Shown: one piece after another, positions 22,943 to 58,658 of the stretch
Numbering within the stretch: the first letter of the stretch is position 1
Layout of the letters: each line of letters begins with the position of its first letter
Source of the DNA: Chitinophagaceae bacterium
GTDB lineage: Bacteria; Bacteroidota; Bacteroidia; Chitinophagales; Chitinophagaceae
Assembly: GCA_023957755.1 (NCBI GenBank)
Contig: JAMLGT010000018.1
Location: 1-64,000, forward strand
DNA: 64,000 nt
Direction: 5' to 3'
Notes under the pieces: generated by a model
Databases searched by the model: none
Told to the model about the DNA's origin: nothing
The model's input: the letters and a program-made list of their open reading frames with translations, nothing else
Made by a program: the position numbers and the translations under genes

Positions 22943-22950
22943 TATATTTG
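22943..22950 (+). promoter_or_regulatory. Promoter -7 element of the recDCB operon
   Basis: TATATTTG is a perfect TAnnTTTG match ending exactly 4 nt before the GTG start of recD. Transcription is therefore expected at or within a few nucleotides of the start codon, giving a leaderless message. A convincing -33 TTG is not visible. Confidence 0.6.
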
Positions 22951-22954
22951 AAAG

Positions 22955-24673
22955 GTGCCGGTATTAACTGAAAATTTCGACAAAACTAGTTTCCAGTTCG
23001 CTGAATATTTCCCCGAATATATACGGCCTTACTTCTACACGCTCTGGGCCAAACTAAAAGACGGACATATTTGTGTAAAAGAGAACGAGGTCACCTCAGC
23101 CGACTGGTCTGCCCTCTTTCCAAATTATAAACCTAAAGAGGATCTCTCAGAATTTATTTCTGAAAATGACACACATACTCCTATCATCGAGTCAGCCGGA
23201 AATCTGTATCTGCAACGATACTTTAAGTATGAAACAACTATCATCCGGAAAATCCATTCCTTGATTAAAACGGAAGTAAACCCCGTCCTTTCATCTGATA
23301 CCACCCGCCTTTATAATGCACTCTATCCATCAGATGAAGAAACCGACTGGCAGGCCGTTGCCACGGCTGCTGCACTGATACAATCTTTTTGCATCATCAC
23401 GGGTGGACCCGGCACAGGAAAGACCAGAACAGTGTCGAACATTCTGGCATTGTTGCTTACAGAAAATCCCGACCTGAAAATAGCGCTGGCAGCCCCTACA
23501 GGCAAAGCCGCTGCCCGCATGACTGAAAGCATTAAAAACAATGCCGCACATTATCCGGAAAAAATCAGACAAACATTCGACTCCCTGTCTCCTTCCACCA
23601 TACACAGATTGCTGATACCAATAAAAGACTCGATTTACTTTAAACACCAAAAGGGGAACCCCCTCCCCTACGATGTGATTATCATTGACGAAAGTTCAAT
23701 GATTGACGTGGCGCTCTTCGCCAAACTCCTCGACGCCATACCCGAATCGGCCAGGCTGATTCTCCTGGGCGACAAGAACCAGCTTGCCTCTGTGGAAGCA
23801 GGCAGTCTGTTTGGCGACCTTTGCTCCCTTCCCGAAGCGCTTAACCAATTCAGCAAAGAATTCATTGGGAGAGTGTCTGCCCTTTACAACAGGCCGCTGC
23901 CCTCTTTAAATGCACCTGTGCCACTTAGTGATCATATAGTAGAACTCCAAAAAAGTTATCGCTTCGACGACAACAGAGGTATCGGAAAACTCAGCCGCAT
24001 CGTGATTAATGAAGATGTAAAAGGGTTTGAAACTTTTATGCGGGATAAAGATGATATTGTAACGATTGACTTCACTTACGATGCACACCTGTTTCACCAG
24101 TTGATCGACAAATTTGAACTCTTTATCAGGGAGCCTGATATCCCGACTGCAATTAAATTAATGAACAAATGCCGCGTGTTGTGTGCCACACGCTTTGGAC
24201 GATTCGGATTATACCAGACAAACAAAAGAATAGAGGCTTATCTGGAAAAGAAAGGGCTGATAAGATGCAACAGGCTTTACTATGAAAACCGCCCCATCAT
24301 CATCACACAAAACAACTATGAACTGAAAGTATATAATGGCGATACCGGAATCATCAGAACAAATAGTGAAGGCATTAAAAAAGCCTTTGTGGAAACCGAA
24401 TCAGGTATCGCAGAAATTAATCCTGTACTATTAAACTATGCAGATACTTCTTTTGCCATTACCATCCATAAAAGCCAAGGGTCTGAGTTTGACGACATTG
24501 CAGTAATGCTACCCGAACACGATGCACCTATCCTCACCAAAGAGTTAGTATATACAGCCATTACCCGCGCTAAAAAACGGGTACTGCTCCAATCTGCAGC
24601 GCAGGTGTTGAAAGATGCGATGCAGCGGAGAGTGCAAAGAGGTAGTGGACTGCATAACCGATTTGACCCATAA
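22955..24673 (+). CDS. recD: Exodeoxyribonuclease V alpha subunit (RecD helicase)
   Basis: RecD is the 5'-3' helicase motor of RecBCD, a superfamily 1B enzyme working on double-strand DNA ends. The 572 residues show an N-terminal RecB-interacting domain (1-110), Walker A GGPGTGKTRTV (about residue 148), AAPTGKAAARM, Walker B VIIIDESSMIDVALF, GDKNQLASVEAG, and C-terminal motifs FAITIHKSQGSEFD and ELVYTAITRAKKR. Translation begins with GTG at 22955; no ATG is near. recC follows after 11 bp. Full-length compared with E. coli RecD (608). Confidence 0.95.
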   Translation: MPVLTENFDKTSFQFAEYFPEYIRPYFYTLWAKLKDGHICVKENEVTSADWSALFPNYKPKEDLSEFISENDTHTPIIESAGNLYLQRYFKYETTIIRKIHSLIKTEVNPVLSSDTTRLYNALYPSDEETDWQAVATAAALIQSFCIITGGPGTGKTRTVSNILALLLTENPDLKIALAAPTGKAAARMTESIKNNAAHYPEKIRQTFDSLSPSTIHRLLIPIKDSIYFKHQKGNPLPYDVIIIDESSMIDVALFAKLLDAIPESARLILLGDKNQLASVEAGSLFGDLCSLPEALNQFSKEFIGRVSALYNRPLPSLNAPVPLSDHIVELQKSYRFDDNRGIGKLSRIVINEDVKGFETFMRDKDDIVTIDFTYDAHLFHQLIDKFELFIREPDIPTAIKLMNKCRVLCATRFGRFGLYQTNKRIEAYLEKKGLIRCNRLYYENRPIIITQNNYELKVYNGDTGIIRTNSEGIKKAFVETESGIAEINPVLLNYADTSFAITIHKSQGSEFDDIAVMLPEHDAPILTKELVYTAITRAKKRVLLQSAAQVLKDAMQRRVQRGSGLHNRFDP

Positions 24674-24684
24674 GCGAAGCCACC

Positions 24685-27600
24685 ATGTCGGAGACAAAAC
24701 TATATATCAAAGGATCAAACTCCCTTACAAAACTTGCAGGAGAATTCTGCCGGGATATTGGCAATCAGAAAATGTCAGTATTTCAACCACTATATATTAT
24801 CACGCAAACCGAAGGTATGAACAGCTGGCTCAAGACGCAAATGGCCGAAAGAGCCGGAATAGCGGCGAATATCAGCTTTCTGAAACCCAACGACCTGATC
24901 AATAAAATCTACTACCTCCTTGGAGGGCAATATCAAAAAACACTTTCCAGGCTTGATATCCAATGGTTGATTTACGACACCCTTGACAACGAAGACTTCA
25001 TGCACCATTTTCCACATGTCGCCTCCTATTATCATAAGGATGGGCTAATCGACAATATTAAAAGAATAGCACTGGCGCGGCAGGTGGCAGACCTCTTTGA
25101 CCAATACCAGGTGTATCGTTATGAAATGCTTGAAAAATGGAACCACGAAGCACAAACCACACACGACCCTGAAGAGAAGTGGCAGCTTACACTCTGGAAT
25201 ATTATTAGAAATAAAGCAGGAGCGCAGTTCCCTGACAAAGCCACTATTCGCCATTCCATCCTGGATAATCTGAACAGGAAAGAGGCTATAGACAGCCTTG
25301 CAGCAGCCATGCCTGCAATTTACCTCTTTGGCACCAGCCTGATTACCGGGTATCATCACGAAATCTTATTGGGCGTATCACAACATATACCCATATACGT
25401 ATATCTGCCAAACCCTGCTCCGGGGATTTACTGGTACGAGGATCCGGGCAGAAAATCCCTCTTTTACCAAAGAAAGAAAAAACAGGAGCCTGACACCGCT
25501 GCACAGGGAAACAGCCTGCTCACCGATTGGGGAAAGCTCACCCAGAACACCTTCAGGCTATTTTTTAAAGATGATTCCACTATCAATAATTATGAAGACT
25601 TTGAAGAGGTGGTGGAGGCAAATACACTTCTGGGCGCTATCAGAAGCACAATACACAGGCATGAGACTCCTGAGAAGAATTATTTCACACGTGAAATGCT
25701 GAATGATTATTCAGTAACTATTCATTCCTGCTTTTCTCCACTCCGTGAAGTGGAGGCTTTATACAACTTTGTCATCAAGCTGCTGAACGATAATCCCCAA
25801 AAATATTCCTTGCGCGATATTATTGTTCAGGTCACCGACATCAATAAATACGCCTCCTGCATCAGGGCCGTATTCGACAATGCCCCCTACAGACTCAGAT
25901 ACGAAATAGCAGATGAATCCTTAATTGCTTCTGACAGCATTAGCCAGGCGCTGTATTCCATACTGACTATCGAGCAGGGAGATTTTACCTCTGAGAAAGT
26001 ACTGCAACTGCTCGACTACTCCACCATCCGCGATCATTTCAGAATATACGACTCAGGCCTCATTCGCAGGGTCGTTTCAGCGGCCAACATCCGGCATGGC
26101 ATCAAAGGAGAACAGGCTGACGATACCGTCTATGTCAGTTGGGACTATGGCCTTAAAAGGATTATGTATGGTATTTGCATGAGTGATGAAACAGAAATCG
26201 GTATAGGCGACAGCAGCTTTTTTACAGTGGACCTGGTAGAGAGTAGTGCTGCAAGTGAAGTGATTCACTTCGTTAGCTTCATTGAAAAATTAATTCATTC
26301 TATTCAGGAGAGAGACACAATACGAACAGTGACAGAGTGGATACAATACGTATATGAAGTACTGGACAACCTGCTTGCAGACCGGGAAACCGAAACGGAC
26401 AATGAGTATCACCTGATCAATAACCAGTTGCAAGAGATGATTTCATCAGGCAATCTCTTTGAAGAAAAAATCAGTTACGCTGTGTTCCTCCGACAATTCT
26501 TACCGACACTCGAAGAGAGCTCGCGCAGTGCCAACTTCGGGCGTGGGGGAATTACCTTTTGTTCACTGATTCCCATGCGGAGTATTCCTTTTAAGGTAGT
26601 AGCTATGCTAGGGATAGATGCCGACAAATTCCCAAGAAAGCCCGTTAAGACCGGCTTCAACCTGATGGAGAACCATCCGTTACCAGGCGACAGGAATGTG
26701 AAAATCAACGACAAACACCTGTTTCTCGAAACACTACTCAGCGCTGAGGAGAAACTATTTATCAGCTATATAGGGCAGCGTATAAAAGACAATACCACTA
26801 AACCACCTTCTATTCTGATTGACGAATTAATTTCTTTTATCGAGGCGGCCTCCGAAATGGATGATGTGGGGGATATCCTTGTAACCAAACAACCGTTACA
26901 CGGTTTCAGTAGCAAATACGGACACGACGACCGTTATTATACTTACCTGCTAGGGTCTGACTCTAAAAAGGAAATCGGCCAGGAAATCCAAAAAGAAGAA
27001 ACGGACAATAATACAATCACGATTGAATCACTCTATCGTTTCTTTTCAGATACAGTGGCCTATTATTATAATAATGTCCTGGGAATTTATTTTGATGAAC
27101 AAGCGGTAACACTTCCTGAAACAGAAATCTTTGAAATGGACGCACTCGAAAAATGGAAGGTGAACCGGCAACTGCTTTACTCAGAGCAGGACGAACTGAA
27201 TACTTTTATCAGAACCTCCGTAAAAACGGGATTAATCCCACTAAAGACCGGAGGAGAATATGCCGTGCACAGCATCCGGTCTGAATACGAAGACACCATT
27301 TCAAAATTCACTGAGGAAAGAAACGGACTTGATCCCGAAAAGAAAAATCTCGTATTCACTACCCACGGTATCACTGTGACCGGAACTATTGAAAACGTCT
27401 TTGGCGACAAGGTGCTGATCCCCAATCTTTCGAAGAATCCCGGAAAAGCCCAATTAAAAGCTCTGTTATATGCGCTGTTGGCACAAGCAACGGGAAGCGG
27501 CCTTACAGTCTGTCTGATTCACGATGGGAGGAGCCGCGCCGCCTGCCAGTTGCAGACTGATGCAGCCACTGAAATTCTTATGCAACTAGTCAAGATTTTT

Positions 27601-27819
27601 AAATCAGGATGCAATGACATACTCCTGTTTAATATCTACTGGATGAAAGACAAAGGGGACCTGGGTAAAAAAATAGAATTCACATCGGAAAGCAATCCCT
27701 ATTATCCACTTGCAATGCGCGACAGACTAAGTGGCAAAGACACCACACAATTGTTCAATCAATATAGTGAAATAGAAAAGTTACTAAAAGAAAAAATTAA
27801 TTTGATTTTTAATGCCTGA
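24685..27819 (+). CDS. recC: Exodeoxyribonuclease V gamma subunit (RecC)
   Basis: RecC is the Chi-recognising and strand-splitting subunit of RecBCD. At 1044 residues it is slightly shorter than E. coli RecC (1122). The N-terminal helicase-like fold shows IITQTEGMNSWLKTQMAER and the NISFLKPNDLI segment. The central part contains FLRQFLPTLEESSRSANFGRGGITFCSL-type sequence and VAMLGIDADKFPRKP typical of RecC. As in the family, no Walker A or nuclease motif is intact. It lies between recD and recB and overlaps recB by 8 bp, implying translational coupling. Which Chi-like octamer it recognises cannot be told. Confidence 0.92.
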   Translation: MSETKLYIKGSNSLTKLAGEFCRDIGNQKMSVFQPLYIITQTEGMNSWLKTQMAERAGIAANISFLKPNDLINKIYYLLGGQYQKTLSRLDIQWLIYDTLDNEDFMHHFPHVASYYHKDGLIDNIKRIALARQVADLFDQYQVYRYEMLEKWNHEAQTTHDPEEKWQLTLWNIIRNKAGAQFPDKATIRHSILDNLNRKEAIDSLAAAMPAIYLFGTSLITGYHHEILLGVSQHIPIYVYLPNPAPGIYWYEDPGRKSLFYQRKKKQEPDTAAQGNSLLTDWGKLTQNTFRLFFKDDSTINNYEDFEEVVEANTLLGAIRSTIHRHETPEKNYFTREMLNDYSVTIHSCFSPLREVEALYNFVIKLLNDNPQKYSLRDIIVQVTDINKYASCIRAVFDNAPYRLRYEIADESLIASDSISQALYSILTIEQGDFTSEKVLQLLDYSTIRDHFRIYDSGLIRRVVSAANIRHGIKGEQADDTVYVSWDYGLKRIMYGICMSDETEIGIGDSSFFTVDLVESSAASEVIHFVSFIEKLIHSIQERDTIRTVTEWIQYVYEVLDNLLADRETETDNEYHLINNQLQEMISSGNLFEEKISYAVFLRQFLPTLEESSRSANFGRGGITFCSLIPMRSIPFKVVAMLGIDADKFPRKPVKTGFNLMENHPLPGDRNVKINDKHLFLETLLSAEEKLFISYIGQRIKDNTTKPPSILIDELISFIEAASEMDDVGDILVTKQPLHGFSSKYGHDDRYYTYLLGSDSKKEIGQEIQKEETDNNTITIESLYRFFSDTVAYYYNNVLGIYFDEQAVTLPETEIFEMDALEKWKVNRQLLYSEQDELNTFIRTSVKTGLIPLKTGGEYAVHSIRSEYEDTISKFTEERNGLDPEKKNLVFTTHGITVTGTIENVFGDKVLIPNLSKNPGKAQLKALLYALLAQATGSGLTVCLIHDGRSRAACQLQTDAATEILMQLVKIFKSGCNDILLFNIYWMKDKGDLGKKIEFTSESNPYYPLAMRDRLSGKDTTQLFNQYSEIEKLLKEKINLIFNA

Positions 27820-30800
27820 CCCGTCGATATCGCAAAACGGATTTGAAAAATTTGATGCCTATACCACTGCCATAGCAGGAAAAAATCTTGTGGAAGCAAG
27901 TGCAGGGACCGGGAAAACTTTTTCCATAGGCATTCTTGCGCTCCGGCTGATCCTGGAGCAACCGGTATCTATAAAAGAGATTCTTCTGGTCACTTTTACC
28001 AACAATGCAGTATCTGAACTTGAAGAAAGAATCAGGCTCTTTATCAAACTGGCACACGACTATCTTGTAAGCGGGAAAGCACCGCCAGCCCACATCAGAC
28101 AAGTGATTGAAAACTGTATAGAGAGGGGAATTCAGCCATCCGAATTGCAGCAGAAACTGAAAGATGCAATGCTCTTTCTGGACGAGCTTTCTGTGATGAC
28201 TATTCATAGTTTCTGCCTCCAGAGCCTTACGAATCAGTCGTTTGAGACCGGTCAGTTATTTGGAGGTGAACTAATTTCTTCTCTTGACGATATTTACCTG
28301 CGCTACATACGCAACTTCTGGCGGAAGCATATTACCACATTGCCATTATCCTTGTATGAAATACTGATGGCTGAAGGGTACTCAATGGAGACTATCCTCA
28401 AAATACTCAAGGAACATGCGGCAGGGAAGCATTATTTCTACTACGACCCCGGGCAGCAATACACTTTTGATGCAAGCGCTATCGACACAGCACTCATCAA
28501 TTCACAGAACCTGAACCATCAAATACAAACTCTGAAAGATCAGTACACGCAGGTCATAATCCATTACCGTCAGGCTATTGAGGAAAAGCTAAAGACCAAC
28601 AGATATGCCAGGAAAGCCTTTATTGAAGACGGACTACTGGACGATCCTGAAAAAATACTGAACACACTCAGTACGGATAACCCAAAGGGTTATTATCAAC
28701 TTCTGGATGACTGGGATATCAACAAGCTGGCACAGCAGTGGAAAGAACTGCACACAAAGGCAATGCTCAATTCATCGGCTCTTGTACAACAACTAAATTG
28801 TTTTGCCATCCGGGAGGTGGGCAAAGACATTTCCCAACATCTCTCTTCCGGAGGCATCCTTTCATATAACGAACTCATCACCAACCTTCATACTGCAATT
28901 ACAGGTGCCAATAAAGAGACAATCTGCTCACAACTGCGTACGCAATATAAGGCTGTGTTTATTGATGAATTTCAGGATACAGACCGCAAACAATACGAAA
29001 TATTCACTACAGCCTTTGGCGATGATACTATATTATTTTTCATAGGTGATCCCAAACAATCCATTTACGCATGGCGCCAGGCTGATATTTATACTTATTT
29101 CGAAGCACGTCATTATGTGGATCACTGCTACAGCATGAATACTAATTACAGGTCGACCCCTGATCTCATTCGTGCAATGAATCGCTTCTTTCTTCCTACA
29201 CCCGACTTTGACACTTTTCACTTCGGCACGCAACAGGAAAGTGTAAAGTACCTTCCGGTAGATGCGCCGGCCCAAAGCGACAAGGGGGTACTACACTACG
29301 ACGGAAAACCTCTCACTCCAATGCAAATATTCAAAGCCGGAAACTGGAATATAATACAGCAAGAGACCGGGAGGCTGATTTTGCAATTACTCACTGATGA
29401 AAAATTCAGGATTGTTCGTAATGGACAACAGTATAGAATCTATCCACGCGATATAGGTATTCTGGTTCGAAGCAAAAAGCATGGCCAGGCAATTAAAGAC
29501 AGGTTGAACGAAATAAATCTTCCTTCTGTATTTATTTCAGACCAGACGATTATGCAAACGGAAGAGGCAAAGGGTATGTTGCTCCTTCTGAAAGCCATTT
29601 TCAATCCCGATATCCGTCTTATTCAAACAGCACTTACTGCCACCTTCACCGGTTTGAGCAGCAGTGAGATATTAAAATTGAACAATGAGAATCTGGTAAC
29701 GCTATTCAAAGAATACAAATCAAAATGGGAAGCACAGGGTGTAAATGTGGCGCTCTCAGCCTTTCTCACTGATTTTGGCATAAGAACCTACCTCACAAAT
29801 CCTGATACTTCTAACGGGTTACGGATTATTACTAACGTGAATCAACTTACGGAACTGCTTTTCAGAACGGAATATCAGAAACGACTTAAACAGTTGGAAC
29901 TGATAGACTGGATGCAACGCGCCACCGAAATGGAACTGATAGAAGAAGACGACAAACTCATACGCCTTGAAAACGATTCGGATGCTGTCACTATTTCGAC
30001 CATCCACTCTGCAAAAGGTCTCCAGTATCCTATAGTGATTGCTACACAATTGGATATGGACACCAGTCTGAGAAACGGCTATACCTCACTCTACATCAGA
30101 GAAGATATTGCAGACCAGGCTTTCGAGCCATTCCGCAGAAAGTACGTGTATATCCCCGTGGCTGACCTTGAGCGCAAAGGCCTGACCCAAATAGCCGAAG
30201 AGCAACTGGAACAGGAAAACAGAAGGCTCCTCTATGTAGCAGTAACCCGTGCGGTATATGGTTGCTTTATTTTCAAAAACACATACAAACTTTATAATAA
30301 TACAGGGCTGGCACACATCACCGACAAATTGCAGGCACTGGAAGAAGATCTGCCTGAAAATCTGATCCGTATATCAGAAGTTGAAGAAATCAATGCACTA
30401 TTTCAAATCACATCCGCTCCTTATCGTGCACAAAATGCCAACAACCCGATTCCTGCCAGGGTAGATGATAAATTAAAAATTAAGGATTACAACTGGCAGT
30501 TTATGAGTTACTCCGGGCTAACAGAAAAATCTGAGGTCGCTCCACCGCAGATAGAAGAACTGGCTTCAGCGCCGGATGAATATGACACATTTGTTTTCGA
30601 ACGATTAAAAAGAGGCCCGGTGACAGGCACCATGATCCACGAAATATTTGAGAAGATAGATTTCACCGATAATCAGCGCCATGACTACATCATTGCAAAT
30701 GTGGTGCAGCACTATACTTCTTCCGGAAGAGACGACTACCGCAAATTTCTGCCCGTACTCATCCACCACGTGCTCCATGCAGTGATCCCCGCAAATGGTC

Positions 30801-31294: not shown

Positions 31295-31299
31295 TGAAT

Positions 31300-31420: not shown

Positions 31421-31428
31421 TATATTTG
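31421..31428 (+). promoter_or_regulatory. Promoter -7 element of glyS
   Basis: TATATTTG is a perfect TAnnTTTG match 7 nt before the glyS ATG, so the mRNA leader would be at most a few nucleotides. No TTG lies at the canonical distance. Confidence 0.6.
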
Positions 31429-31435: not shown

Positions 31436-32893
31436 ATGGCAAACGAGAACAATTTTCAGGATATTATCGCCCATTGCAAGGAATATGGGTACATTTTTCC
31501 ATCCAGTGAAATCTATGACGGGCTGAGTGCCGTATATGATTATGGTCAGAACGGAGTACAACTTAAGAAAAATATCCGCGACCAGTGGTGGAAAAGCATG
31601 ACCCAGCTACAGGACAATATCGTGGGCATTGATGCAGCGATCTTCATGCATCCGCTTACCTGGAAGGCAAGTGGACACGTGGACAATTTCAGTGACCCGA
31701 TGATCGATAACAAAGACAGCCAGAAGCGCTACCGTGTGGATCATCTGATAGAAGGGCATGCCGAAAAACTGGAACAGGAAGGCAGGAAAGACGAAGCACA
31801 GGCATTGCTTAGCCAAATGGATTCGCTGCTGGCAAAAGATGACTTTTCGGCATTGAAAGAACTCATCCTAAGTAATGGAATTGTATGTGCGGTAAGTGGC
31901 ACCGCAAACTGGTCAGATATTCGCCAGTTTAACCTGATGTTCGAAACTCAAATAGGTAGTGTAAGTGGAGAGGCCGACACCATTTACCTGAGGCCGGAAA
32001 CTGCTCAGGGTATCTTTGTCAATTTTCTCAATGTGCAGAAAACAGGGCGAATGAAAATACCATTCGGCATTGCGCAGACAGGCAAAGCTTTCAGAAACGA
32101 AATCGTTGCACGCCAGTTCATCTTCCGGATGAGAGAGTTTGAACAAATGGAAATGCAGTTTTTTGTGCGCCCAGGCACCGAACTAGACTGGTATGCCCAC
32201 TGGAAAGCGGAACGGAAGAAATGGCACGAATCGATTGGAATACCTGCTGATAAGTTACGTTACCACGACCACGTAAAGCTGGCACACTATGCCAATGCCG
32301 CGGTAGATATTGAATATGAATTCCCTTTTGGCTTCAAGGAACTGGAAGGCATTCACAGCCGTACGGATTACGACCTGAAACAGCATCAGGGGTTGAGCAA
32401 AAAGAAAATGCAGTACTACGACAACGATCTGGATGAAAATGGTAAACCTTATGGAAACTACATCCCTTATGTGGTGGAAACTTCAGTTGGGTTAGACCGT
32501 TTGTTTCTTGCGGTAGTTTCAATGTCATACAAAGAAGAGAAATGGATAAAAGAGGATGGCACCGAAGACAGCCGTGTGGTAATGCGTATTCCTCCCAAAC
32601 TGGCTCCATACAAACTGGCGATACTACCTCTGGTAAAAAAAGACGGACTTCCTGAAATAGCCCGTGATCTGATGCACGAATGCAAAGAATTCTTCCATAC
32701 TTTTTATGAGGAAAAAGACAGTATCGGCAAACGCTACAGAAGGATGGATGCCATAGGTACACCTTACTGCGTTACGGTTGACCACCAAACCAAAGAAGAC
32801 CATACTGTTACCATTCGCGACCGCGATAACATGACCCAGGAAAGAATCCATCTGAACGATGTGATACAAAAAATCAGAGAGGCCATCAAATAG
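31436..32893 (+). CDS. glyS: Glycyl-tRNA synthetase (homodimeric type)
   Basis: The enzyme charges tRNA-Gly. It is a class II synthetase of the single-chain alpha2 type, 485 residues, not the bacterial alpha2beta2 GlyQ/GlyS type. Class II motif 2 is clear in GIAQTGKAFRNEI with FRMREFEQMEMQFFV. The motif before it, YLRPETAQGIFVNFLNV, is diagnostic of GlyRS, and motif 3 is in VETSVGLDRLFLAV. The C-terminal anticodon-binding domain (about 360-485) begins near PKLAPYKLAILPL. The start is fixed by the family and by the promoter 7 nt upstream. Confidence 0.97.
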   Translation: MANENNFQDIIAHCKEYGYIFPSSEIYDGLSAVYDYGQNGVQLKKNIRDQWWKSMTQLQDNIVGIDAAIFMHPLTWKASGHVDNFSDPMIDNKDSQKRYRVDHLIEGHAEKLEQEGRKDEAQALLSQMDSLLAKDDFSALKELILSNGIVCAVSGTANWSDIRQFNLMFETQIGSVSGEADTIYLRPETAQGIFVNFLNVQKTGRMKIPFGIAQTGKAFRNEIVARQFIFRMREFEQMEMQFFVRPGTELDWYAHWKAERKKWHESIGIPADKLRYHDHVKLAHYANAAVDIEYEFPFGFKELEGIHSRTDYDLKQHQGLSKKKMQYYDNDLDENGKPYGNYIPYVVETSVGLDRLFLAVVSMSYKEEKWIKEDGTEDSRVVMRIPPKLAPYKLAILPLVKKDGLPEIARDLMHECKEFFHTFYEEKDSIGKRYRRMDAIGTPYCVTVDHQTKEDHTVTIRDRDNMTQERIHLNDVIQKIREAIK

Positions 32894-37086: not shown

Positions 37087-37094
37087 TACCTTTA
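37087..37094 (+). promoter_or_regulatory. Putative -7 element of the sulfatase-GH2 operon
   Basis: TACCTTTA matches TAnnTTTG at 7 of 8 positions and ends 4 nt before the ATG at 37099. The same 4-nt spacing is seen at recD, msrC, gpmI, gldB and nadE. It therefore either makes the first ATG a leaderless start or places the second ATG (37132) behind a leader of about 31 nt. Confidence 0.4.
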
Positions 37095-37098: not shown

Positions 37099-38694
37099 AT
37101 GAGCCTTTTTACGTTTAGAACCTATAAAACAATGATCAGAAAAAGTATCTTCCTGGTTTCCCTTTCGTGTATCACCTTCATAATTCAGGCTCAGAAACGG
37201 CCTAATATTGTACTTATCATCTCCGATGATCATTCCTATCAGACCATCAGTGCATATGGCAGCAGGTTGATAAAGACACCGGGAATCGACCGCATTGCAC
37301 AGGAGGGGGCGAGATTTGATCATGCCTATGTCACCAACTCTATCTGCGGACCCAGCCGGGCTGTAATCGTCACCGGAAAATATAGTCATAAGAATGGATT
37401 TAAGGACAATGAGACATCTCACTTCGAGGCCGGCCAGCGCACATTTGTAAGTGAGCTTACCCGCAATGGTTATCAGACTGCATTAATTGGAAAATGGCAT
37501 CTGGGCGACCAGCCTCAGGGATTTTCCTACTTCAAGATATTTCCCGGAATGGGTCAGTACTATAATCCTGACTTTATTAATATGTACGGAAGCAGGGTCA
37601 GGGTGGAAGGGTATGGCACTACCCTGGCTGAAGACTTTGCAGAAGAATGGCTCGATGGCAGAGACACCACAAAACCATTCTGCCTGATACTGGGCCAGAA
37701 AGGCGTACACCGTACCTGGGTGCCAGATATACAGGACTTGGGCAAATTCGATAATGTCGTTTTCCCTATCCCTCCAACCTTCTACGATGATTACTCCGGA
37801 CGTAAAGCAGCAGCCGTTCAGGATATGACTATTGAGAAGACACTCCAGATGGGATACGACCTGAAAATGTTTGACAGTGCCGTACAGAAAGACAAGATGG
37901 GTTATATCGCCCGGATGAATCCGGCGCAACGTGCAGCCTTTGACGCTTATTACGACCCCATCTATGCAGACCTTAAATCACGTCAACTATCCGGCAGGGC
38001 GCTGACCGAATGGAAATACCAACATTACATGCGCGATTACCTGAGCAGTGTCCTTTCATTAGATCGAAATATCGAAAGAACACTGAACTATCTGGATGCG
38101 CATAACCTCACAGACAATACCATTGTCATCTATCTTTCTGACCAGGGGTTTTATATGGGCGAACATGGCTGGTTCGACAAGCGCTGGATGTATGAAGAGT
38201 CTTTTAGAACACCAATGGTCATACGTTACCCGGGAGTCATTAAACCAGGGTCTGTCCACAACGATTTTATCCTCAATCTAGATATTGGCCCTACCCTACT
38301 CGAAGCCGCAGGGCTAAAAATTCCCGAGGATATGCAGGGTGCCTCATTCCTCCCTTTACTCAAGGATGAGAAGAAAGGCTGGAGAGACGCAATGTATTAT
38401 CATTACTACGAAAACGGCGAACACAGTGTATCACCACACTTTGGTGTCAGAACTGAAAGGTATAAACTCATCAGGTTTTATAAAAGAGTAGAAAGCTGGG
38501 AATTATACGACCTGAAAAAGGATCCTAACGAAATGCACAATATCTTCGGGCAGAAAGGAACCAGAAAAATAACGTCTAAAATGATGCAGAAACTTATGGA
38601 CCTGATTATCAAATACGACGATAAAGAAGCAATGCAAATCTTTAAGACACTCATTCACAAAGATCCGGCACCCGTATTAAAACCTGTACCTTAA
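37099..38694 (+). CDS. Secreted sulfatase (S1 family, formylglycine-dependent)
   Basis: The enzyme hydrolyses sulfate esters, probably from a sulfated glycan. The 531 residues have a Sec signal (IFLVSLSCITFIIQAQ) and the N-terminal calcium site NIVLIISDDH. The active-site motif CGPSR (about residue 83), with the GKYSHKNG continuation, has the Cys converted to formylglycine by a maturase. GKWHLGD and the DNTIVIYLSDQGFYMGEHG metal motif follow. A DUF4976-like C-terminal region ends the protein. Closest in style to GlcNAc-6-sulfatase or iduronate-type S1 enzymes, but the exact substrate is open. A second ATG at 37132 gives a tighter signal peptide. The GH2 gene follows 28 bp later, presumably co-transcribed. 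Confidence 0.92.
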   Translation: MSLFTFRTYKTMIRKSIFLVSLSCITFIIQAQKRPNIVLIISDDHSYQTISAYGSRLIKTPGIDRIAQEGARFDHAYVTNSICGPSRAVIVTGKYSHKNGFKDNETSHFEAGQRTFVSELTRNGYQTALIGKWHLGDQPQGFSYFKIFPGMGQYYNPDFINMYGSRVRVEGYGTTLAEDFAEEWLDGRDTTKPFCLILGQKGVHRTWVPDIQDLGKFDNVVFPIPPTFYDDYSGRKAAAVQDMTIEKTLQMGYDLKMFDSAVQKDKMGYIARMNPAQRAAFDAYYDPIYADLKSRQLSGRALTEWKYQHYMRDYLSSVLSLDRNIERTLNYLDAHNLTDNTIVIYLSDQGFYMGEHGWFDKRWMYEESFRTPMVIRYPGVIKPGSVHNDFILNLDIGPTLLEAAGLKIPEDMQGASFLPLLKDEKKGWRDAMYYHYYENGEHSVSPHFGVRTERYKLIRFYKRVESWELYDLKKDPNEMHNIFGQKGTRKITSKMMQKLMDLIIKYDDKEAMQIFKTLIHKDPAPVLKPVP

Positions 38695-49351: not shown

Positions 49352-49359
49352 TACCTTTG
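49352..49359 (+). promoter_or_regulatory. Promoter -7 element of the msrC-cdd1 pair
   Basis: TACCTTTG is a perfect TAnnTTTG match ending 4 nt before the ATG at 49364. It predicts a leaderless transcript. The nearest upstream TTG (49325-49327) is 24 bp away, longer than the usual 19. Confidence 0.6.
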
Positions 49360-49363: not shown

Positions 49364-49837
49364 ATGGCAGAAGACCTTACTATTATCAGCGGAGACAAGA
49401 CGGCACAATATCAATCACTTATTCCTCAAATCAGGGGACTACTCGATGGAGAACCTGACCTTATCGCCAATCTGGCTAATATTTGTGGTGCGTTGAAAGA
49501 ACAGTTCGACTGGCTATGGGTAGGATTTTATTTGGTAAAAGGTAGCGACCTGGTACTCGGCCCCTTTCAGGGCCCGGTGGCTTGCACAAGAATCAGAAAG
49601 GGCAAAGGCGTTTGTGGCACAGCCTGGGAAAAACGCGAGACACTGATAGTGCTGGATGTAACTAAATTTGCCGGACATATCGCGTGCAACAGCACTTCAA
49701 GATCAGAAATCGTATTGCCTGTAATCAGAAACAACGAGGTGGTAGCGGTACTGGATGTGGACAGCACCATGCCCGCGCACTTCGATGAAACTGACCGTCA
49801 ATTTCTAGAACAGATTATAGCCTTAATTCATTTCTAA
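49364..49837 (+). CDS. msrC: Free methionine-(R)-sulfoxide reductase (GAF domain)
   Basis: fRMsr reduces free L-methionine-(R)-sulfoxide using a GAF-fold active site. The 157 residues have the three family cysteines: GPVACTRI, GKGVCGTAW and GHIACNSTSRSEIVLPV, at the spacing (10 and 24 residues) of E. coli YebR C84, C94 and C118. WLWVGFYLVKG and VLDVDSTMPAHFDETD complete the GAF core. The start at 49364 fits the family and the promoter; an upstream TTG at 49325 does not. A Cdd1-like gene follows after 26 bp. Confidence 0.93.
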   Translation: MAEDLTIISGDKTAQYQSLIPQIRGLLDGEPDLIANLANICGALKEQFDWLWVGFYLVKGSDLVLGPFQGPVACTRIRKGKGVCGTAWEKRETLIVLDVTKFAGHIACNSTSRSEIVLPVIRNNEVVAVLDVDSTMPAHFDETDRQFLEQIIALIHF

Positions 49838-52174: not shown

Positions 52175-52750
52175 TTAGATTTCACCTGAAACCATCTTCA
52201 ATTTTTCCTTCGGTTTAGTCAGAATTTTTTTCTTTATCAATATGTCCTCCAACAAACTCTTTGCTCTTGTATATTGCGACCTGCTGGTACTTTCTCCTAT
52301 TTCCAGGATTGTTCCAATCTCTTTGTGTGAGAAACCTTCAATTGCATACAAGTTCAATACCGTCCTGTAGCCCAATGGCAACATACGAATACACTCAACC
52401 ACCTGTTTTGCCTGCAAAAGAGAGGGAATTGAGTAATCTCTGATACGCACTTCTTCCGCATAGGCCAATGACACACTCTCTGCAAACTTTTTATTCTTTT
52501 TCAGATGATTGATACAGGTATGCACCATAATCGTTCTGACCCAACCTTCCAAAGAACCTTCACCCTTAAACTGGTGAATCTGACTGAATACTTTCATGAA
52601 CCCCTCCTGCAGCATATCTTCTGCATCTTCCTGATTTCTGGCATACCGATAACACACGCCAAGCATTTTTGCACTGTGACGCTTATAAAGCGCTCTTTGT
52701 GCTCCTGGCAGGTTTTCCCGGCACCCTTGGATCATTTGCTCCTCAGTCAT
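52175..52750 (-). CDS. RNA polymerase ECF sigma factor
   Basis: A sigma-70 of the extracytoplasmic-function class, 191 residues from the ATG at 52750. Region 2 (about 15-85) shows RALYKRHSAKMLGVCYRYARNQEDAEDMLQE with the core -10-binding helix FKGEGSLEGWVRTIMVHTCIN. Region 4 (about 125-175) has LPLGYRTVLNLYAIEGFSHKEIGTILEIGESTSRSQ. An upstream ATG (52786) adds 12 residues that do not fit the family. A TATCTTAG (52773-52780, minus) one base off the -7 box lies just upstream of 52750. It forms an operon with the membrane-anchored protein. Confidence 0.93.
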   Translation of the reverse strand: MTEEQMIQGCRENLPGAQRALYKRHSAKMLGVCYRYARNQEDAEDMLQEGFMKVFSQIHQFKGEGSLEGWVRTIMVHTCINHLKKNKKFAESVSLAYAEEVRIRDYSIPSLLQAKQVVECIRMLPLGYRTVLNLYAIEGFSHKEIGTILEIGESTSRSQYTRAKSLLEDILIKKKILTKPKEKLKMVSGEI

Positions 52751-52894
52751 TATGGGTATTAGTTTAACCCCACTAAGATAAGACAAATAATTCCAAAATT
52801 TGCTGCATGGAAAAATTGGATTTTTTTACATTATGATACTAACTGCCTATGTATCATAAGAATAGGCAGGACAGGATAAGCCTTAAAAAAGCAA

Positions 52895-53389
52895 TTATTT
52901 TTTCCTGATCAGGCTGTCAGCAGGGTATTTGGCTTCCATTGCTGCCCTGGCTTGGTCGGCCCACGCGAAAATTTCCTTCTTCTGATCGTCAGAGAGTGAG
53001 GTGCCTGAATGCATCACAGTATAGCCTTTCACAGGCATTTTACCTTCTTCAATCTCTTCTCTGATTTCGCGCAACTTCTTGTACTGGCGGTAGAGCGGAT
53101 AGCTTCCAATTGCAGAGAAGTTCAGCTCTCTTCTGCCTTCCACAATATGGTCGTGCAATATCCACCGGGCCGGTTGCACATTCCAATACCAGGGATACTT
53201 AATCTCATCACTATGGCAGTCGTAGCAGGAGTTTTTAAAAGTGGACATTACATTCTCCGGCACCTCAAAAACATGGTTGACAGCCAATTCCTCAGGGTGA
53301 ATATCCACCACTTTGTCGGGCCTGAAAAACTGAATCACTATAAACGCAAGTACAATAATAAAAAGCAGCGCTTTGACAATCTTTCCCAT
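52895..53389 (-). CDS. Haem-binding domain protein (membrane-anchored)
   Basis: This 164-residue protein begins with a TM anchor (LLFIIVLAFIVIQFF, 8-22). It carries one c-type haem motif, NSCYDCHSDEIKYPWYWNVQP (about residue 54), followed by EGKMPVKGYTVMHSGTSLSDDQ, matching the Bacteroidota haem-binding domain family. The Met in GKMP is a likely axial ligand. It would face the periplasm. It is 5 bp downstream of gpmI on the same strand and is probably co-transcribed, although the functions look unrelated. Confidence 0.9.
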   Translation of the reverse strand: MGKIVKALLFIIVLAFIVIQFFRPDKVVDIHPEELAVNHVFEVPENVMSTFKNSCYDCHSDEIKYPWYWNVQPARWILHDHIVEGRRELNFSAIGSYPLYRQYKKLREIREEIEEGKMPVKGYTVMHSGTSLSDDQKKEIFAWADQARAAMEAKYPADSLIRKK

Positions 53390-53394
53390 TTGAT

Positions 53395-54915
53395 TTAGTT
53401 TTTATTAAACAAGGTTGTTCCGGTCATTGCTTCCGGTATCGGAAGATTCATTAATTGTAAAATGGTAGGTGCCACATCTCCTAATTTCCCGGGTTGCAGC
53501 TCCAGTGCCCCTGCACCTATAACGAAATAGGGCACCAGGTTCTTTGTATGTGCCGTATTAGGCGTGCCATTCTCATTGATCATATAATCCGCATTGCCGT
53601 GGTCTGCCGTCAAAAATATGGTATATCCACTCTCCAATGCAGCAGTAACTACTTTTTCCACACACTGATCCACGGTCTCCACCGCCTTCACTACGGCATC
53701 CCAAACTCCGGTGTGTCCGACCATGTCGGCATTGGCAAAATTGAGGCAGATAAAGTCGGCGGTCTTATTCTTTATCTCCGGCAGTAACGCGTCTGTCACC
53801 TCCCTTGCACTCATCTCAGGCTGAAAATCATAGGTAGGCACCTTGGGCGAAGGAATCATTATCCTCTTTTCCCCCTCAAAAGTTTGTTCCCTGCCTCCAC
53901 TGAAGAAGAAAGTAACATGAGGGTATTTTTCGGTCTCCGCAATCCGGATTTGCTTCAAATGATGATGCTCCAATACTTCCCCAATCGTACTCGTAAGGTC
54001 CTGATTATTAAAGATGTTATGTACGTTCCTGAAAGTGTGGTCATAGATTGTCATCGTGGTGTAGTAAAGATTCAAAGGTGTCATCTCCTGTTCGGGAAAT
54101 GCCCGCTGGGTCAATGCTTCAGTAATCTGCCGGCAGCGGTCTGTTCTGAAATTAAAACAAATCACTGCATCATCTTCCTTAATTGCTGCATCTGCAACCG
54201 TGTTGTGCACAATAGGAAGTATAAACTCATCCGTAACACCTTCTTCATAAGATTGCCTTACCGCATCAAGTACATCGCTTACCTGTTTACCCTCTCTTTT
54301 CACCAACGCATCGTAAGCCTTCTTAATCCGCTCCCAACGTTTGTCGCGATCCATAGCATAGTAGCGCCCTACAACGGTAGCAATCTCACCGGTCGTCTTA
54401 TCAAGATGCTGTTGCAGATCAGTAAGATATCCAATTCCACTTTTAGGATCCGTGTCTCTCCCGTCAGTGAAAGCATGAATCTTTACCTTTTCGATTCCCC
54501 TGTCCTTACAAATCTTCGTGAGCGCTTTTAGATGATTGATATGCGAATGCACACCCCCATCGCTTACCAGGCCCATCAGATGAAGGGTTTTACCATGATC
54601 CTTTGCATAACTCAACGTATCATTCAGTGCAGTATTTGCTTCCAGCGACCCGTCCTCTATAGCTATATTGATTCGCTCAAGTTCCTGATACACAATCCTT
54701 CCGGCACCAAGGTTCAGATGCCCCACCTCACTATTTCCCATCTGGCCTTCAGGTAATCCAACAGCCCTGCCGCAGGTAACCAGCGTGCTATTGGGATATT
54801 TACTGTAAAGGGAAGAGACAAACGGTGTTTTGGCAGCCCGGATGGCATCACTCTTTGCAACCTTTCCCAGCCCCCATCCGTCCATTATAATTAAAATAGC
54901 TCTGTTATTTTCCAT
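53395..54915 (-). CDS. gpmI: Phosphoglycerate mutase, cofactor-independent
   Basis: The enzyme interconverts 3- and 2-phosphoglycerate through a phosphoserine intermediate with two Mn ions. At 506 residues it has the family length. The nucleophile Ser is in GQMGNSEVGHLNLGAGR (about residue 61), preceded by IIMDGWG with the first metal Asp. Other metal and substrate motifs are SDGGVHSHINHL, TDGRDTDP, FNFRTDR, NFANADMVGHTG and TADHGNADYM. A perfect -7 box ends 4 nt before the ATG. Confidence 0.98.
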   Translation of the reverse strand: MENNRAILIIMDGWGLGKVAKSDAIRAAKTPFVSSLYSKYPNSTLVTCGRAVGLPEGQMGNSEVGHLNLGAGRIVYQELERINIAIEDGSLEANTALNDTLSYAKDHGKTLHLMGLVSDGGVHSHINHLKALTKICKDRGIEKVKIHAFTDGRDTDPKSGIGYLTDLQQHLDKTTGEIATVVGRYYAMDRDKRWERIKKAYDALVKREGKQVSDVLDAVRQSYEEGVTDEFILPIVHNTVADAAIKEDDAVICFNFRTDRCRQITEALTQRAFPEQEMTPLNLYYTTMTIYDHTFRNVHNIFNNQDLTSTIGEVLEHHHLKQIRIAETEKYPHVTFFFSGGREQTFEGEKRIMIPSPKVPTYDFQPEMSAREVTDALLPEIKNKTADFICLNFANADMVGHTGVWDAVVKAVETVDQCVEKVVTAALESGYTIFLTADHGNADYMINENGTPNTAHTKNLVPYFVIGAGALELQPGKLGDVAPTILQLMNLPIPEAMTGTTLFNKN

Positions 54916-54919
54916 CTGT

Positions 54920-54927
54920 CAAAGCTA
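54920..54927 (-). promoter_or_regulatory. Promoter -7 element of gpmI
   Basis: TAGCTTTG on the minus strand is a perfect TAnnTTTG match, 4 nt from the gpmI ATG, predicting a leaderless transcript. Confidence 0.6.
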
Positions 54928-55019
54928 TTGTATTCATTGTTTTATTCCTTAATAGAAATTATATTTATGATAAATTTTGTCTGGCAACAGGTCATCTTCA
55001 ACCCCCAAAAAAGTAAAAG

Positions 55020-55397
55020 ATGATAAAAACATTTTCTCTACTTCTGACTTTTCTGATGAGTTCGGTCGGCTTTTCGCAGTCCACATCTTCAGAGATAATT
55101 CAGGCTTTCCGTACCGGAAATGCCGAAAAAGTATCAGCTTATTTCGACAACTCTCTTGAAATAACTGTGGACAAACACAATAAGGTATATAAAAAATCAG
55201 ATGCTGCTACTTTTATTTCGGGCTTTTTTTCGGAGAATAATGTCAAAGATTTTAAGGTACTTCACCAAAGTGAAAGTGGTGGTTCTTTTTATTGTATAGG
55301 CAATCTGGTTACATCTTCCGGAACCTTCCGAACCACTTTCTATGCAAAGGAAAAGGGCGGGAAGACGGTAGTGCAGGAAATCCGGTTTGAAAAATAA
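55020..55397 (+). CDS. DUF4783 exported protein
   Basis: This 125-residue protein has a signal peptide ending at GFSQ. It is a small alpha+beta fold of the NTF2-like kind: EIIQAFRTGNAEKVSAYFDNSLEITV, then a FFSENNVKDFKVLHQ helix-strand and three closing strands (GSFYCIGNLVT, FRTTFYAKEK, VVQEIRFEK). It matches the Bacteroidota-specific DUF4783 family, of unknown function, often found near pilus- or gliding-type housekeeping genes. It is divergent from gpmI and followed by the SUI1 gene 94 bp later. Confidence 0.85.
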   Translation: MIKTFSLLLTFLMSSVGFSQSTSSEIIQAFRTGNAEKVSAYFDNSLEITVDKHNKVYKKSDAATFISGFFSENNVKDFKVLHQSESGGSFYCIGNLVTSSGTFRTTFYAKEKGGKTVVQEIRFEK

Positions 55398-55491
55398 GCC
55401 TGGCATTAAATCACCAATCCGGAATTGCGAAAGCACCTCCCGGATAAATTTTTCTTTGCCACATCGATTACCTTCTTTTAATTTGGTCTTT

Positions 55492-55836
55492 ATGAAGAAG
55501 AAAAACAGGAACAATGCATCCGGAATCGTGTATTCTACCAATCCGGACTTTACTCCCCCGGTCGAAGATGAAGACGATTACACGCCACAACCGATAGCAA
55601 CTCAGGAAATAAGAATAAGGCTCGATAAGAAGCAACGGGCAGGCAAGGTAGTTACACTCATCATCGGATTCGTCGACACCGATGAAGCTATTGAATCAAT
55701 CGGCAAGGAGATCAAAAAGTTTTGTGGTACCGGAGGCAGCGCTAAAGATGGCGAGGTATTGCTTCAGGGAGATTTCAGAGAGAAATCACTCCAATGGCTC
55801 AAAAAGAAAGGCTATACCAAAAGCAGAATCATCTGA
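55492..55836 (+). CDS. SUI1/YciH-family translation-factor-like protein
   Basis: This 114-residue protein is homologous to eukaryotic eIF1 and bacterial YciH. After a disordered N-terminus (1-45, acidic EDEDDYTP) comes the SUI1 fold: IRIRLDKKQRAGKVVTLIIGF, then the EIKKFCGTGGSAKDGEVLLQG loop and WLKKKGYTKSRII. In bacteria YciH is thought to affect initiation fidelity. The frame extends upstream to 55387, overlapping the DUF4783 gene, but the ATG at 55492 begins the family sequence. It converges on gldB. Confidence 0.92.
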   Translation: MKKKNRNNASGIVYSTNPDFTPPVEDEDDYTPQPIATQEIRIRLDKKQRAGKVVTLIIGFVDTDEAIESIGKEIKKFCGTGGSAKDGEVLLQGDFREKSLQWLKKKGYTKSRII

Positions 55837-55873
55837 ACTGCCTCATGCATCTGCCAGCTAAAGCGAAGGACAA

Positions 55874-56920
55874 CTAACCCTTAGGCTTATACTTAGAACG
55901 CTCATATACTTCCCGCGCCGGAACCTTCATGAGTGAATCAGGCGATACATCGGGAAACTTCTGCATGAATTTCTTTACGATCTGAAGCCCGGTGAAACTT
56001 CCCAGATTCCCCGGAGAAGACTCTCCAAATTCCTGGGTTTTGGGACTTTGTCCGATGTAATTCTTAATTACATCCTGGTCAGAGGAATTCAATAAATCAT
56101 TATTCAGGAAAAAATCCCATATGACTGCTTCATTGCTATATGCACCCTTTAACTGATCCGGAGTGTAGCCAAATACCGAAGCCTCATCCACACCGGGCAG
56201 GAATAATTCCAACAGGTAATATCTTCTGCCACTGTTCACTATCTGCTCTATCAGCGAGAAAGCCCGCCCATCCTGAGGAAAGATATCATCTGCAATATTC
56301 TTCATGCTATTCACCGGAATATTCCCGGGCGTAAAAGTCTGAGAAATATATTTCGGATAGAGTGCCATCCCCTCATCACTTTGATAAAAGGAAAAGTCTT
56401 GCCCCAGATGCAACTGCAATCCTACCCCTATACCTGCATTGGTTAACACATCGCCCTGCAAACCATAAGAAGTCATAAAAAAAGCATCCATTGGCCCTAT
56501 GTAGGTAATCACCTTATTGGGAAGCGGATAATCCGGAAAGTAATATTTTACATGTTGCAACCCTTTCTTTATCCCTTCAGCCCATTTATCAAAGTTGCTG
56601 TACAATACCTGTGCTGAATCAAATACCGGCCGGTAATCTCTGAGAAACTGTTTCAATGCAACCCGCTCCATACTACCTTCGCTCATTACACTATCAGGTT
56701 GCAGGCCCAATATATGCATAAGGTAATCGTTAAGGAAACCGGGATATTTTTGTTGTAGTCCGGACAGGCCGTCAGAAAGGTTATTAGTATCCAGTTTGAA
56801 AAAATCCTGATCGAATCGCGCCACTTTCAGTTCCACTTTGATGGAAGATACATCAGGCGCCTTACTCCGGTTGCAGGCCACCAGGGATATCACTAAGCAT
56901 ATAATAATCAACTTCTTCAT
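55874..56920 (-). CDS. gldB: GldB-like gliding motility lipoprotein
   Basis: GldB is a lipoprotein needed for gliding in Flavobacterium. The 348 residues begin with a lipoprotein signal (lipobox LVAC, Cys at about 16). They continue with VARFDQDFFKLDTNNLSDGL and LQQKYPGFLNDYLMHILGL, typical of the family, and the later central LLELFLPGVDEASVFGYT region. The adjacent divergent nadE gene supports the call, since gldB and nadE are neighbours in many Bacteroidota. gldC, which often accompanies gldB, is absent here. GldB-like proteins also occur in non-gliding species, so motility is not proven. Confidence 0.85.
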   Translation of the reverse strand: MKKLIIICLVISLVACNRSKAPDVSSIKVELKVARFDQDFFKLDTNNLSDGLSGLQQKYPGFLNDYLMHILGLQPDSVMSEGSMERVALKQFLRDYRPVFDSAQVLYSNFDKWAEGIKKGLQHVKYYFPDYPLPNKVITYIGPMDAFFMTSYGLQGDVLTNAGIGVGLQLHLGQDFSFYQSDEGMALYPKYISQTFTPGNIPVNSMKNIADDIFPQDGRAFSLIEQIVNSGRRYYLLELFLPGVDEASVFGYTPDQLKGAYSNEAVIWDFFLNNDLLNSSDQDVIKNYIGQSPKTQEFGESSPGNLGSFTGLQIVKKFMQKFPDVSPDSLMKVPAREVYERSKYKPKG

Positions 56921-56924
56921 CCGG

Positions 56925-56932
56925 CAAAAATA
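56925..56932 (-). promoter_or_regulatory. Promoter -7 element of gldB
   Basis: TATTTTTG on the minus strand is a perfect TAnnTTTG match, 4 nt from the gldB ATG. It shares the 61-bp gap with the nadE promoter. Confidence 0.6.
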
Positions 56933-56947
56933 GGAATGTAGATTGCA

Positions 56948-56977
56948 TTTGAAGCAGGAGCGAATCCTCTAATTTTG
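56948..56977 (+). promoter_or_regulatory. Promoter of nadE
   Basis: TTTG (56948-56951), an 18-bp spacer and TAATTTTG (56970-56977) form a good Bacteroidota promoter. The -7 box ends 4 nt before the nadE ATG, whose position is certain from the protein. The mRNA should begin at or next to the start codon. Confidence 0.75.
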
Positions 56978-56981
56978 CACC

Positions 56982-58658
56982 ATGAAAATATTTGTGGCAC
57001 AGCAGAACTACATTATTGGTGACCTTAAGGGAAATACAACAAAAATTATTGAGGCTATTCACATGGCAAAAACCCAGGGAGCCGACCTGGCTGTATTCAG
57101 TGAAATGAGTATCTGTGGCTATTCTCCGCAAGATCACCTGCTGGTAAAAAGCTTCATTACCGAAATCGAAAAATGTGTGCATGAAATTAAAGCCCACACC
57201 TACGACATTGCTGTAATTGCAGGCGCTCCCCGCCCTAACACCGGAACCACCGGCAAAGCACTCTTTAATTCTGCTTACTTCCTATACAATAACGAAGTGC
57301 AGGCAATCATAGACAAGACCTGCCTGCCAAACTACGACATCTTCGATGAAGACCGTTATTTCGAGCCCGCAACAGAATGGAAAGTAATAACTTTCGAAGG
57401 GAAAAAGATTGCGCTTACTATCTGTGAAGACATCTGGAATCTGGGCAACCACCCACTCTACAGGCATTGCCCTATGGAGAAACTCATGGAGCAACAACCC
57501 GATCTGATGATTAATATTTCAGCTTCGCCATTCAACTACCGTCGCACTGACGAACGAAAAGAAACGGTAAGCCGGAATGTACTGAAGTATCATCTGCCAA
57601 TGGTATATTGTAATGCTATCGGCGCACAGACAGAGTTGATATTTGACGGTGCCTCACTTGTATTCGATAAGCATGGAAAGCTCAACCACAAGCTTGCTCA
57701 ATTTGACGAAGACTATCAATTGGTCACTCTTACCCCGGATGGCACTTTCGAACATCCTACACCGGTAAATTTTACGGAAAACAACTCAGTCATTCAGAAC
57801 CCCGACCACTACCATGCGGATGTGAATCTTTCACAAATGAAAGAAGCAATCCTTCTGGGAATCAGAGATTACTTCAAGAAAACAGGACTTACCAAAGCCA
57901 TTATCGGCAATAGTGGTGGAATAGACAGTGCAGTCACCATCGCACTGGCCTGCGAAGCACTCGGAAGTGAGAACGTGTTCTCCATACTCATGCCCTCTCA
58001 ATTCAGCAGTGACCACAGCATTAAAGACGGAAAGCAACTTTCTGAAAATCTGAAATCTCCGTTTTATATAATACCAATCGAACCGGTATATCATCGCTTT
58101 CTGAACGTGCTGGATCCGGTATTCAGCAAACTCCCCTTCGGGGTTGCTGAAGAAAATATTCAGGCCAGAACCCGGAGCACCATCCTGATGGCAATTGCTA
58201 ACAAGTTAGGATACACGTTATTAAACACCAGTAACAAAAGTGAGCTATCTGCAGGTTATGGCACACTCTATGGAGATATGGCAGGAGGGTTATCCGTCCT
58301 TGGAGACTGTTATAAAACCCAGGTATATGGACTTGCCGGCCTGATTAATTCAGAAAAGGAAATTATCCCCCAAAACATTCTACACAAAGCTCCTTCCGCA
58401 GAACTCCGTCCGGATCAATATGACCAACAGAGTCTCCCTCCCTACCCTGTACTGGATGCCATCCTCTATCAACTCATTGAATGTTTCAAATCAGAGGACG
58501 AGATTGCTTCTTTGGGATATGAGCCGGTAATTGTGCGCAAGGTGGTAAACTTATTAAACCGTGCAGAATTTAAGCGTCATCAGTTCTGTCCCATACTAAG
58601 GGTCTCTCCAAAAGCCTTCGGCAGCGGAAGAAGAATCCCTGTGGTCAACCGATTCTGA
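56982..58658 (+). CDS. nadE: Glutamine-dependent NAD+ synthetase
   Basis: The enzyme makes NAD+ from deamido-NAD+ using ammonia released from glutamine. The 558 residues have two domains. The nitrilase-like glutaminase (1-270) carries its Glu (FSEMSICGYSPQD), Lys (DKTCLPNYDIFDEDRYF) and Cys (LTICEDIWNLG). The synthetase (280-558) has the PP-loop GNSGGIDSAVTIAL (about residue 310), MPSQFSSDHS and NTSNKSELSAGYGTLYGD. Both active sites are intact. The TonB receptor gene starts about 108 bp downstream. Confidence 0.97.
   Translation: MKIFVAQQNYIIGDLKGNTTKIIEAIHMAKTQGADLAVFSEMSICGYSPQDHLLVKSFITEIEKCVHEIKAHTYDIAVIAGAPRPNTGTTGKALFNSAYFLYNNEVQAIIDKTCLPNYDIFDEDRYFEPATEWKVITFEGKKIALTICEDIWNLGNHPLYRHCPMEKLMEQQPDLMINISASPFNYRRTDERKETVSRNVLKYHLPMVYCNAIGAQTELIFDGASLVFDKHGKLNHKLAQFDEDYQLVTLTPDGTFEHPTPVNFTENNSVIQNPDHYHADVNLSQMKEAILLGIRDYFKKTGLTKAIIGNSGGIDSAVTIALACEALGSENVFSILMPSQFSSDHSIKDGKQLSENLKSPFYIIPIEPVYHRFLNVLDPVFSKLPFGVAEENIQARTRSTILMAIANKLGYTLLNTSNKSELSAGYGTLYGDMAGGLSVLGDCYKTQVYGLAGLINSEKEIIPQNILHKAPSAELRPDQYDQQSLPPYPVLDAILYQLIECFKSEDEIASLGYEPVIVRKVVNLLNRAEFKRHQFCPILRVSPKAFGSGRRIPVVNRF

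Follow-up and report, generated by a model that had tools for sequence, protein, structure and literature searches.

The window analysed here is a stretch of 64,000 nt from a Chitinophagaceae bacterium (contig JAMLGT010000018.1 of assembly GCA_023957755.1). Inspection of the upstream regions in the window bears out the placement of promoter boxes described in the original prediction (Table 1). A perfect TAnnTTTG box lies exactly 4 nt before the ATG of nadE, gpmI, gldB and msrC and before the GTG of recD, and the glyS box at 7 nt and the one-mismatch box at 4 nt from the sulfatase gene were likewise located as claimed. In a relative whose nadE is 76% identical (L082), the region upstream of nadE also seems to contain a box in the opposite orientation, with 4 nt between it and a gldB-like start. 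Among the 37 ATG-start window genes considered, the other perfect boxes found within 60 nt of a start lie at distances of 20, 23, 31 and 37 nt. TAnnTTTG is not in excess in the window, with 42 occurrences observed versus 55.7 expected; the signal here is one of placement, not abundance.

Table 1. Promoter boxes close to start codons in the window, with the genes that follow them
Feature	Gene position (strand)	Box	Box position	Distance to start codon	Pfam match and remarks
recD-like helicase gene	22955-24673 (+)	TATATTTG	22943..22950	4 nt to GTG 22955	RecD-like helicase
glyS gene	31436-32893 (+)	TATATTTG	31421..31428	7 nt to ATG 31436	class II tRNA synthetase; glyS is the name given in the original prediction
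sulfatase gene	37099-38694 (+)	TACCTTTA (7/8 match)	37087..37094	4 nt to ATG 37099	sulfatase
msrC gene	ATG 49364, stop at 49837 (+)	TACCTTTG	49352..49359	4 nt to ATG	GAF protein; msrC is the name given in the original prediction
gpmI gene	53395-54915 (-)	TAGCTTTG	54920..54927	4 nt to ATG 54915	gpmI
gldB gene	55874-56920 (-)	TATTTTTG	56925..56932	4 nt to ATG 56920	GldB
nadE gene	56982-58658 (+)	TAATTTTG	56970..56977	4 nt to ATG 56982	NAD synthase
gldB/nadE divergent region	56921..56981	both facing boxes		each at 4 nt	61 bp between start codons

Distance between box and start codon across the genome

A count of box-to-start distances across the genome, compared with shuffled sequences, had been proposed as the test of a preferred 4-nt spacing. 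We sampled 1.664 of the 3.67 Mb of this genome (3,665,499 bases in 35 contigs), as 80 stretches (1.6 Mb) plus the window. Genes were called as long open frames, each beginning at the first ATG that follows the preceding in-frame stop; the count therefore covers long genes that have an ATG and lie entirely within a stretch. Of 1,072 genes called, nine had less than 120 nt of upstream sequence and were dropped, leaving 1,063 for analysis. For distances of 0 to 14 nt between the box and the ATG, the numbers of genes were 0, 0, 1, 1, 21, 5, 6, 2, 4, 1, 3, 1, 2, 2 and 3. The outcome of the proposed test is thus a sharp peak at 4 nt, where the 21 genes compare with a mean of 0.58 and a maximum of 3 in 100 dinucleotide shuffles of the same regions. 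Shuffle means at other distances were about 0.5-0.9, with 0.44 at distance 0, and six altered motifs gave 0 or 1 genes at distance 4. Distances 0-3 together hold two genes, the same background level as in the shuffles, and a second, broad mode is present at 15-25 nt, with 3 to 10 genes per distance. Overall, a perfect box was found at 4-6 nt in 32 of the 1,063 genes, at 7-13 nt in 15 and at 14-60 nt in 141.

Four of the 21 distance-4 genes are the window's own; outside the window the count is 17 of 1,026 sampled genes. In a subset of 487 genes with unambiguous starts, in which no GTG or TTG separates the ATG from the upstream stop and the next 25 codons are free of another ATG, 10 have the box at distance 4. 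Raw counts of box-ATG pairs in the whole genome, made without gene calling, gave 84 at spacing 4, 35 at spacing 7 and 24 at spacing 1, the latter two serving as controls with the same reading-frame relation as spacing 4. Subtracting the mean of the two controls from 84 suggests that about 50 ATG genes in the whole genome would carry a box at 4 nt.

All but one of the 21 genes (L035:994-1494) match a Pfam family, among them UvrD-like helicase, MnmG, RlmN-like, PdxJ, polyA-polymerase-like, serine dehydratase and SCO1 families; their Pfam matches include no ribosomal protein family. The variant TAnnTTTA, to which the sulfatase box of the window also belongs, lies at 4 nt in 5 of the 1,063 genes, with a median of 2 per distance.

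The weakest of the 4-nt cases is recD, which starts with GTG. This GTG is the sole ATG, GTG or TTG from the upstream stop to 20 codons downstream, and none of the four other full-length homologues has a box 4 nt before its assigned ATG. Genome-wide, the box followed by 4 nt and GTG is not in excess (31 occurrences versus 44 for the reversed control), and the proposal that GTG starts form an equal part of the 4-nt class was rejected for want of such an excess.

Promoter-like features of the 4-nt boxes

In F. johnsoniae promoters, G is reported to be avoided at the two nn positions of the box, and 4 or 5 nt separate the box from the transcription start (PMC6847099). The 4-nt boxes conform to the resulting TAHHTTTG pattern of sigma-ABfr promoters: G occupies 1 of their 42 nn positions (0.02), compared to 0.06 in boxes at 14-60 nt and 195 of 944 positions (0.21) in boxes inside genes. 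Similarly, the base right after the box is C in 0.62 of the 4-nt boxes, 0.49 of the 14-60 nt boxes and 0.20 of those inside genes. Both differences between 4-nt and inside-gene boxes are significant, with Fisher P values of 0.0013 for G at nn and 5e-5 for C after the box. Both the 4-nt and the leadered class show an AT-rich stretch 4-7 nt upstream of the box. None of the 21 4-nt genes has another perfect box at 10-110 nt, compared to 188 of the 1,042 others.

Two observations weigh against a promoter reading. T directly precedes TA in 45% of leadered boxes versus 19% of 4-nt boxes, the latter being only 21. The TTG of a -33 TTTG element, located 19 nt upstream of the box, occurs in 9 of 141 leadered boxes, where it is weak, versus 0 of 21 4-nt boxes, a number too small to judge; this element is also described as weak in F. 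johnsoniae (PMC6847099). Positions -14 to -9 relative to the start codon are 53% A in leadered genes; in the 4-nt class, whose box occupies this region, the figure is 38%. The spacer of 4 nt is rich in C and poor in A (A 20% and C 43%, versus 35% and 18%).

With the F. johnsoniae spacing of 4 or 5 nt, a box 4 nt away from the start codon would place +1 at the A of AUG. Together with the peak at 4 nt, this spacing points to promoters placed such that the start site would coincide with the start codon, as in leaderless genes. We consider it highly probable that the boxes are ordinary -7 elements of the Bacteroidota primary sigma factor (sigma-ABfr type), with transcription predicted to start on the start codon's first base. 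Initiation by RNA polymerase would fall on the A of AUG, 5 nt downstream of the box, giving an mRNA devoid of a leader, and the ribosome would then have to begin on a 5'-terminal AUG. Translation from a terminal AUG would be expected from established work on leaderless mRNAs. The spacing is carried over from a member of another family and would be expected to apply here by analogy, and the messages would in that case be leaderless and translated from the terminal AUG. On the sequence evidence, the leaderless reading of the 4-nt genes is very likely, and a leader of 1-2 nt is indistinguishable from none. Both the sharp 4-nt peak, far above chance, and the reading as leaderless or nearly leaderless messages are supported.

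Three other readings of the peak can be weighed against the same data. The 4-nt box could act as a translation signal of a leadered mRNA and be no promoter at all: it sits at a place fit for a ribosome-binding motif, and non-Shine-Dalgarno upstream signals are reported in Bacteroidota (PMC6847099, PMC9581028). However, the 4-nt boxes bear the base marks of leadered promoters, and orthologues have the same motif far upstream instead. The 4-nt genes also avoid near same-strand upstream genes, one of the 21 having such a neighbor less than 20 nt away versus 181 of 840 box-less genes. We regard a pure translation signal as very improbable.

It is also improbable that these are real promoters whose start site is off by 1-3 nt, resulting in a tiny leader or in partial loss of the AUG, with the protein starting at a later codon. 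The F. johnsoniae spacing of 4 or 5 nt and the 11 of 1,063 genes with a box at 5-6 nt would fit such a shift, but distances 0-3 stay at background while the peak stands at 4, as expected if the AUG must remain intact, and the starts of orthologues line up with the ATG used. Finally, a TAA or TAG in the box is in frame at 4 nt, and the upstream stop lies inside the box in 9 of the 21 genes, which could make the peak an artefact of choosing the first ATG after a stop. The chance of this is negligible: the same frame effect at distances 1, 7 and 10 yields just 0, 2 and 3 genes, and the raw counts obtained independently of gene calling peak at 4 too.

Placement of the box in orthologues and related genomes

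The original prediction held that a wrong start call could not explain the spacing in nadE and gpmI. Such an error does not account for the spacing in these two genes, nor in msrC, as their starts line up with those of their orthologues. In relatives, the gpmI and msrC boxes lie either 4-6 nt or at least 13 nt from the start. Among 29 msrC loci from other genera, a perfect box lies 4 nt before the ATG in eight and before a GTG in one (L277); one further box is at 5 nt, one at 6 nt and none at 7-12 nt, the nearest box is at 13-38 nt in six loci, and 12 have no box within 70 nt. Two of these loci, L277 and L282, have no ATG and were read by eye from 60 nt upstream. In L277, GTG replaces ATG with the box still 4 nt away, a possible leaderless GUG start similar to that proposed for recD.

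For gpmI, the 29 orthologues from other genera comprise five with a perfect box at 4 nt, two with one at 5 nt and five with a one-mismatch box at 4 nt, all ending in TTTA (L142, L147, L158, L161 and L168); nine have a box only at 17-60 nt, eight have no box, and none has one at 6-16 nt. Of 59 nadE homologues, 25 partial or distant ones were set aside; in the 34 examined, the box is at 4 nt in five and at 7 nt in one. The five include the nearest named homologue, L081 from a Chitinophagaceae MAG, which is nearly the same species (95% identity in the best segment). For gldB, an ATG could be assigned in 27 orthologues, 1 of which has a 4-nt box; two further orthologues lack such an ATG. The absence of a perfect 4-nt box from most orthologues of gldB (26 of 27), gpmI (24 of 29) and msrC (20 of 29) counts against the leaderless reading. 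These comparisons suggest that the exact spacing has been kept or regained in several genes despite differing upstream DNA and would elsewhere have been replaced by a long leader. On the gpmI tree, the box label (a perfect box 4 or 5 nt away or a one-mismatch box at 4 nt, the eight box-less rows being left out) needs six changes, of which at least three are forced by well supported branches. No clustering of the label was seen on this tree, 112 of 500 shuffles being equally low.

The spread of the arrangement was assessed in 36 chosen genomes of 198, namely every genome of the family (eight) and of the order (five more), 14 of the remaining 36 in the class and nine from other classes. Spacing 4 exceeds both spacings 1 and 7 in all 27 genomes of the class, the present one included (23 at P<0.01), three of which (G041, G045 and G154) were picked partly for their high rank. 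In other classes this holds for 8 of 9 genomes (4 at P<0.01), a biased figure since these were picked partly for a high count. The spacing-4 excess is absent from G016. Among the 49 class genomes in the even draw of 198, spacing-4 matches outnumber the reversed pattern in 44 (24 at P<0.01). A leaderless class specific to this lineage was therefore rejected, the excess being found class-wide.

Gene-level counts in 400 kb of G115, from the same family, gave 10 of 279 genes at distance 4 and at most 4 at every other distance, with a box at 4-6 nt in 14 genes versus 29 at 14-60 nt. In 400 kb of G101, from another class, distance 4 holds 3 of 261 genes, too few to judge alone. When the spacing-4 count is divided by the average of those at spacings 1 and 7, the highest ratios are 7.5 in G144, 5.5 in G115, 3.7 in G041 and 3.5 in G072. 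Some genomes may use the 4-nt arrangement far more than others.

Relation to known leaderless genes and significance

Leaderless mRNAs have been mapped in other members of the phylum, whereas in this genome they are predicted from sequence. In F. psychrophilum, 5.5% of the mRNAs of 890 CDSs are reported as leaderless (PMC9723704); in F. johnsoniae, leaders exceed 10 nt in 87%, so that some 13% do not (PMC6847099); and in B. thetaiotaomicron, about 3.7% of 5'UTRs are shorter than 10 nt (PMC7366714). As far as these accounts describe them, the three species resemble the present case in phylum, in -7 box and in that a minority of their mRNAs have a very short leader or none. An exact spacing of 4 nt and a change of state from one orthologue to another are seen here and were not met in the available text of those accounts. 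A search of titles and abstract openings, mostly of freely available papers, found none describing a 4-nt peak between TAnnTTTG and ATG.

Leaderless genes are also described in Actinobacteria and Deinococcus-Thermus, where a Pribnow-like box lies some 10-12 bp ahead of the start (PMC3160421). As here, a promoter box directly precedes the start codon in these groups, but the share of genes is larger and the sigma factor and box are different. Of 37 Bacteroidetes/Chlorobi genomes in the same survey, which used an E. coli-type box, only 1 is reported to have been assigned leaderless genes (PMC3160421), and the StartLink authors characterize the FCB group by AT-rich non-canonical RBSs (PMC9581028).

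The "distinct class in this lineage" of the original prediction does not stand, as the 4-nt excess spans the class and earlier mapping had shown leaderless mRNAs in both Flavobacterium and Bacteroides. These data show no sign of a special mechanism beyond ordinary leaderless initiation, and the 4-nt genes, as predicted here, are of a kind already known in the phylum and recognised from their upstream DNA. The genome encodes bS21, reported to have a role in hiding the anti-Shine-Dalgarno (PMC10783764), although its presence says little alone; the 16S rRNA, sought for its anti-Shine-Dalgarno, was not found in this assembly.

A broader reading is that genes in Bacteroidota would tend either to lack a leader, with transcription starting on the A of AUG, or to have one of at least about 9 nt, short leaders being disfavoured and orthologues jumping between the two states. 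We consider this rather unlikely. Its odds are lowered because boxes at 7-13 nt exceed the shuffles (15 of 1,063 genes versus about 5) and look like promoters too, with C after the box in 0.80. If true, two initiation routes would exist side by side, picked by promoter placement, and the leaderless share in some genera, such as that of G115, would clearly exceed the few percent known from mapping in model species.

Surveys and gene finders have taken Bacteroidota as users of AT-rich leaders (PMC9581028) or have called leaderless genes there in few genomes (PMC3160421). A rule of TAnnTTTG, 4 nt and ATG would allow candidate leaderless genes to be listed throughout the group directly from genomes and would aid start-codon annotation. 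The 4-nt genes would also provide natural test cases for initiation on a bare AUG by ribosomes whose anti-Shine-Dalgarno is reportedly hidden (PMC10783764).
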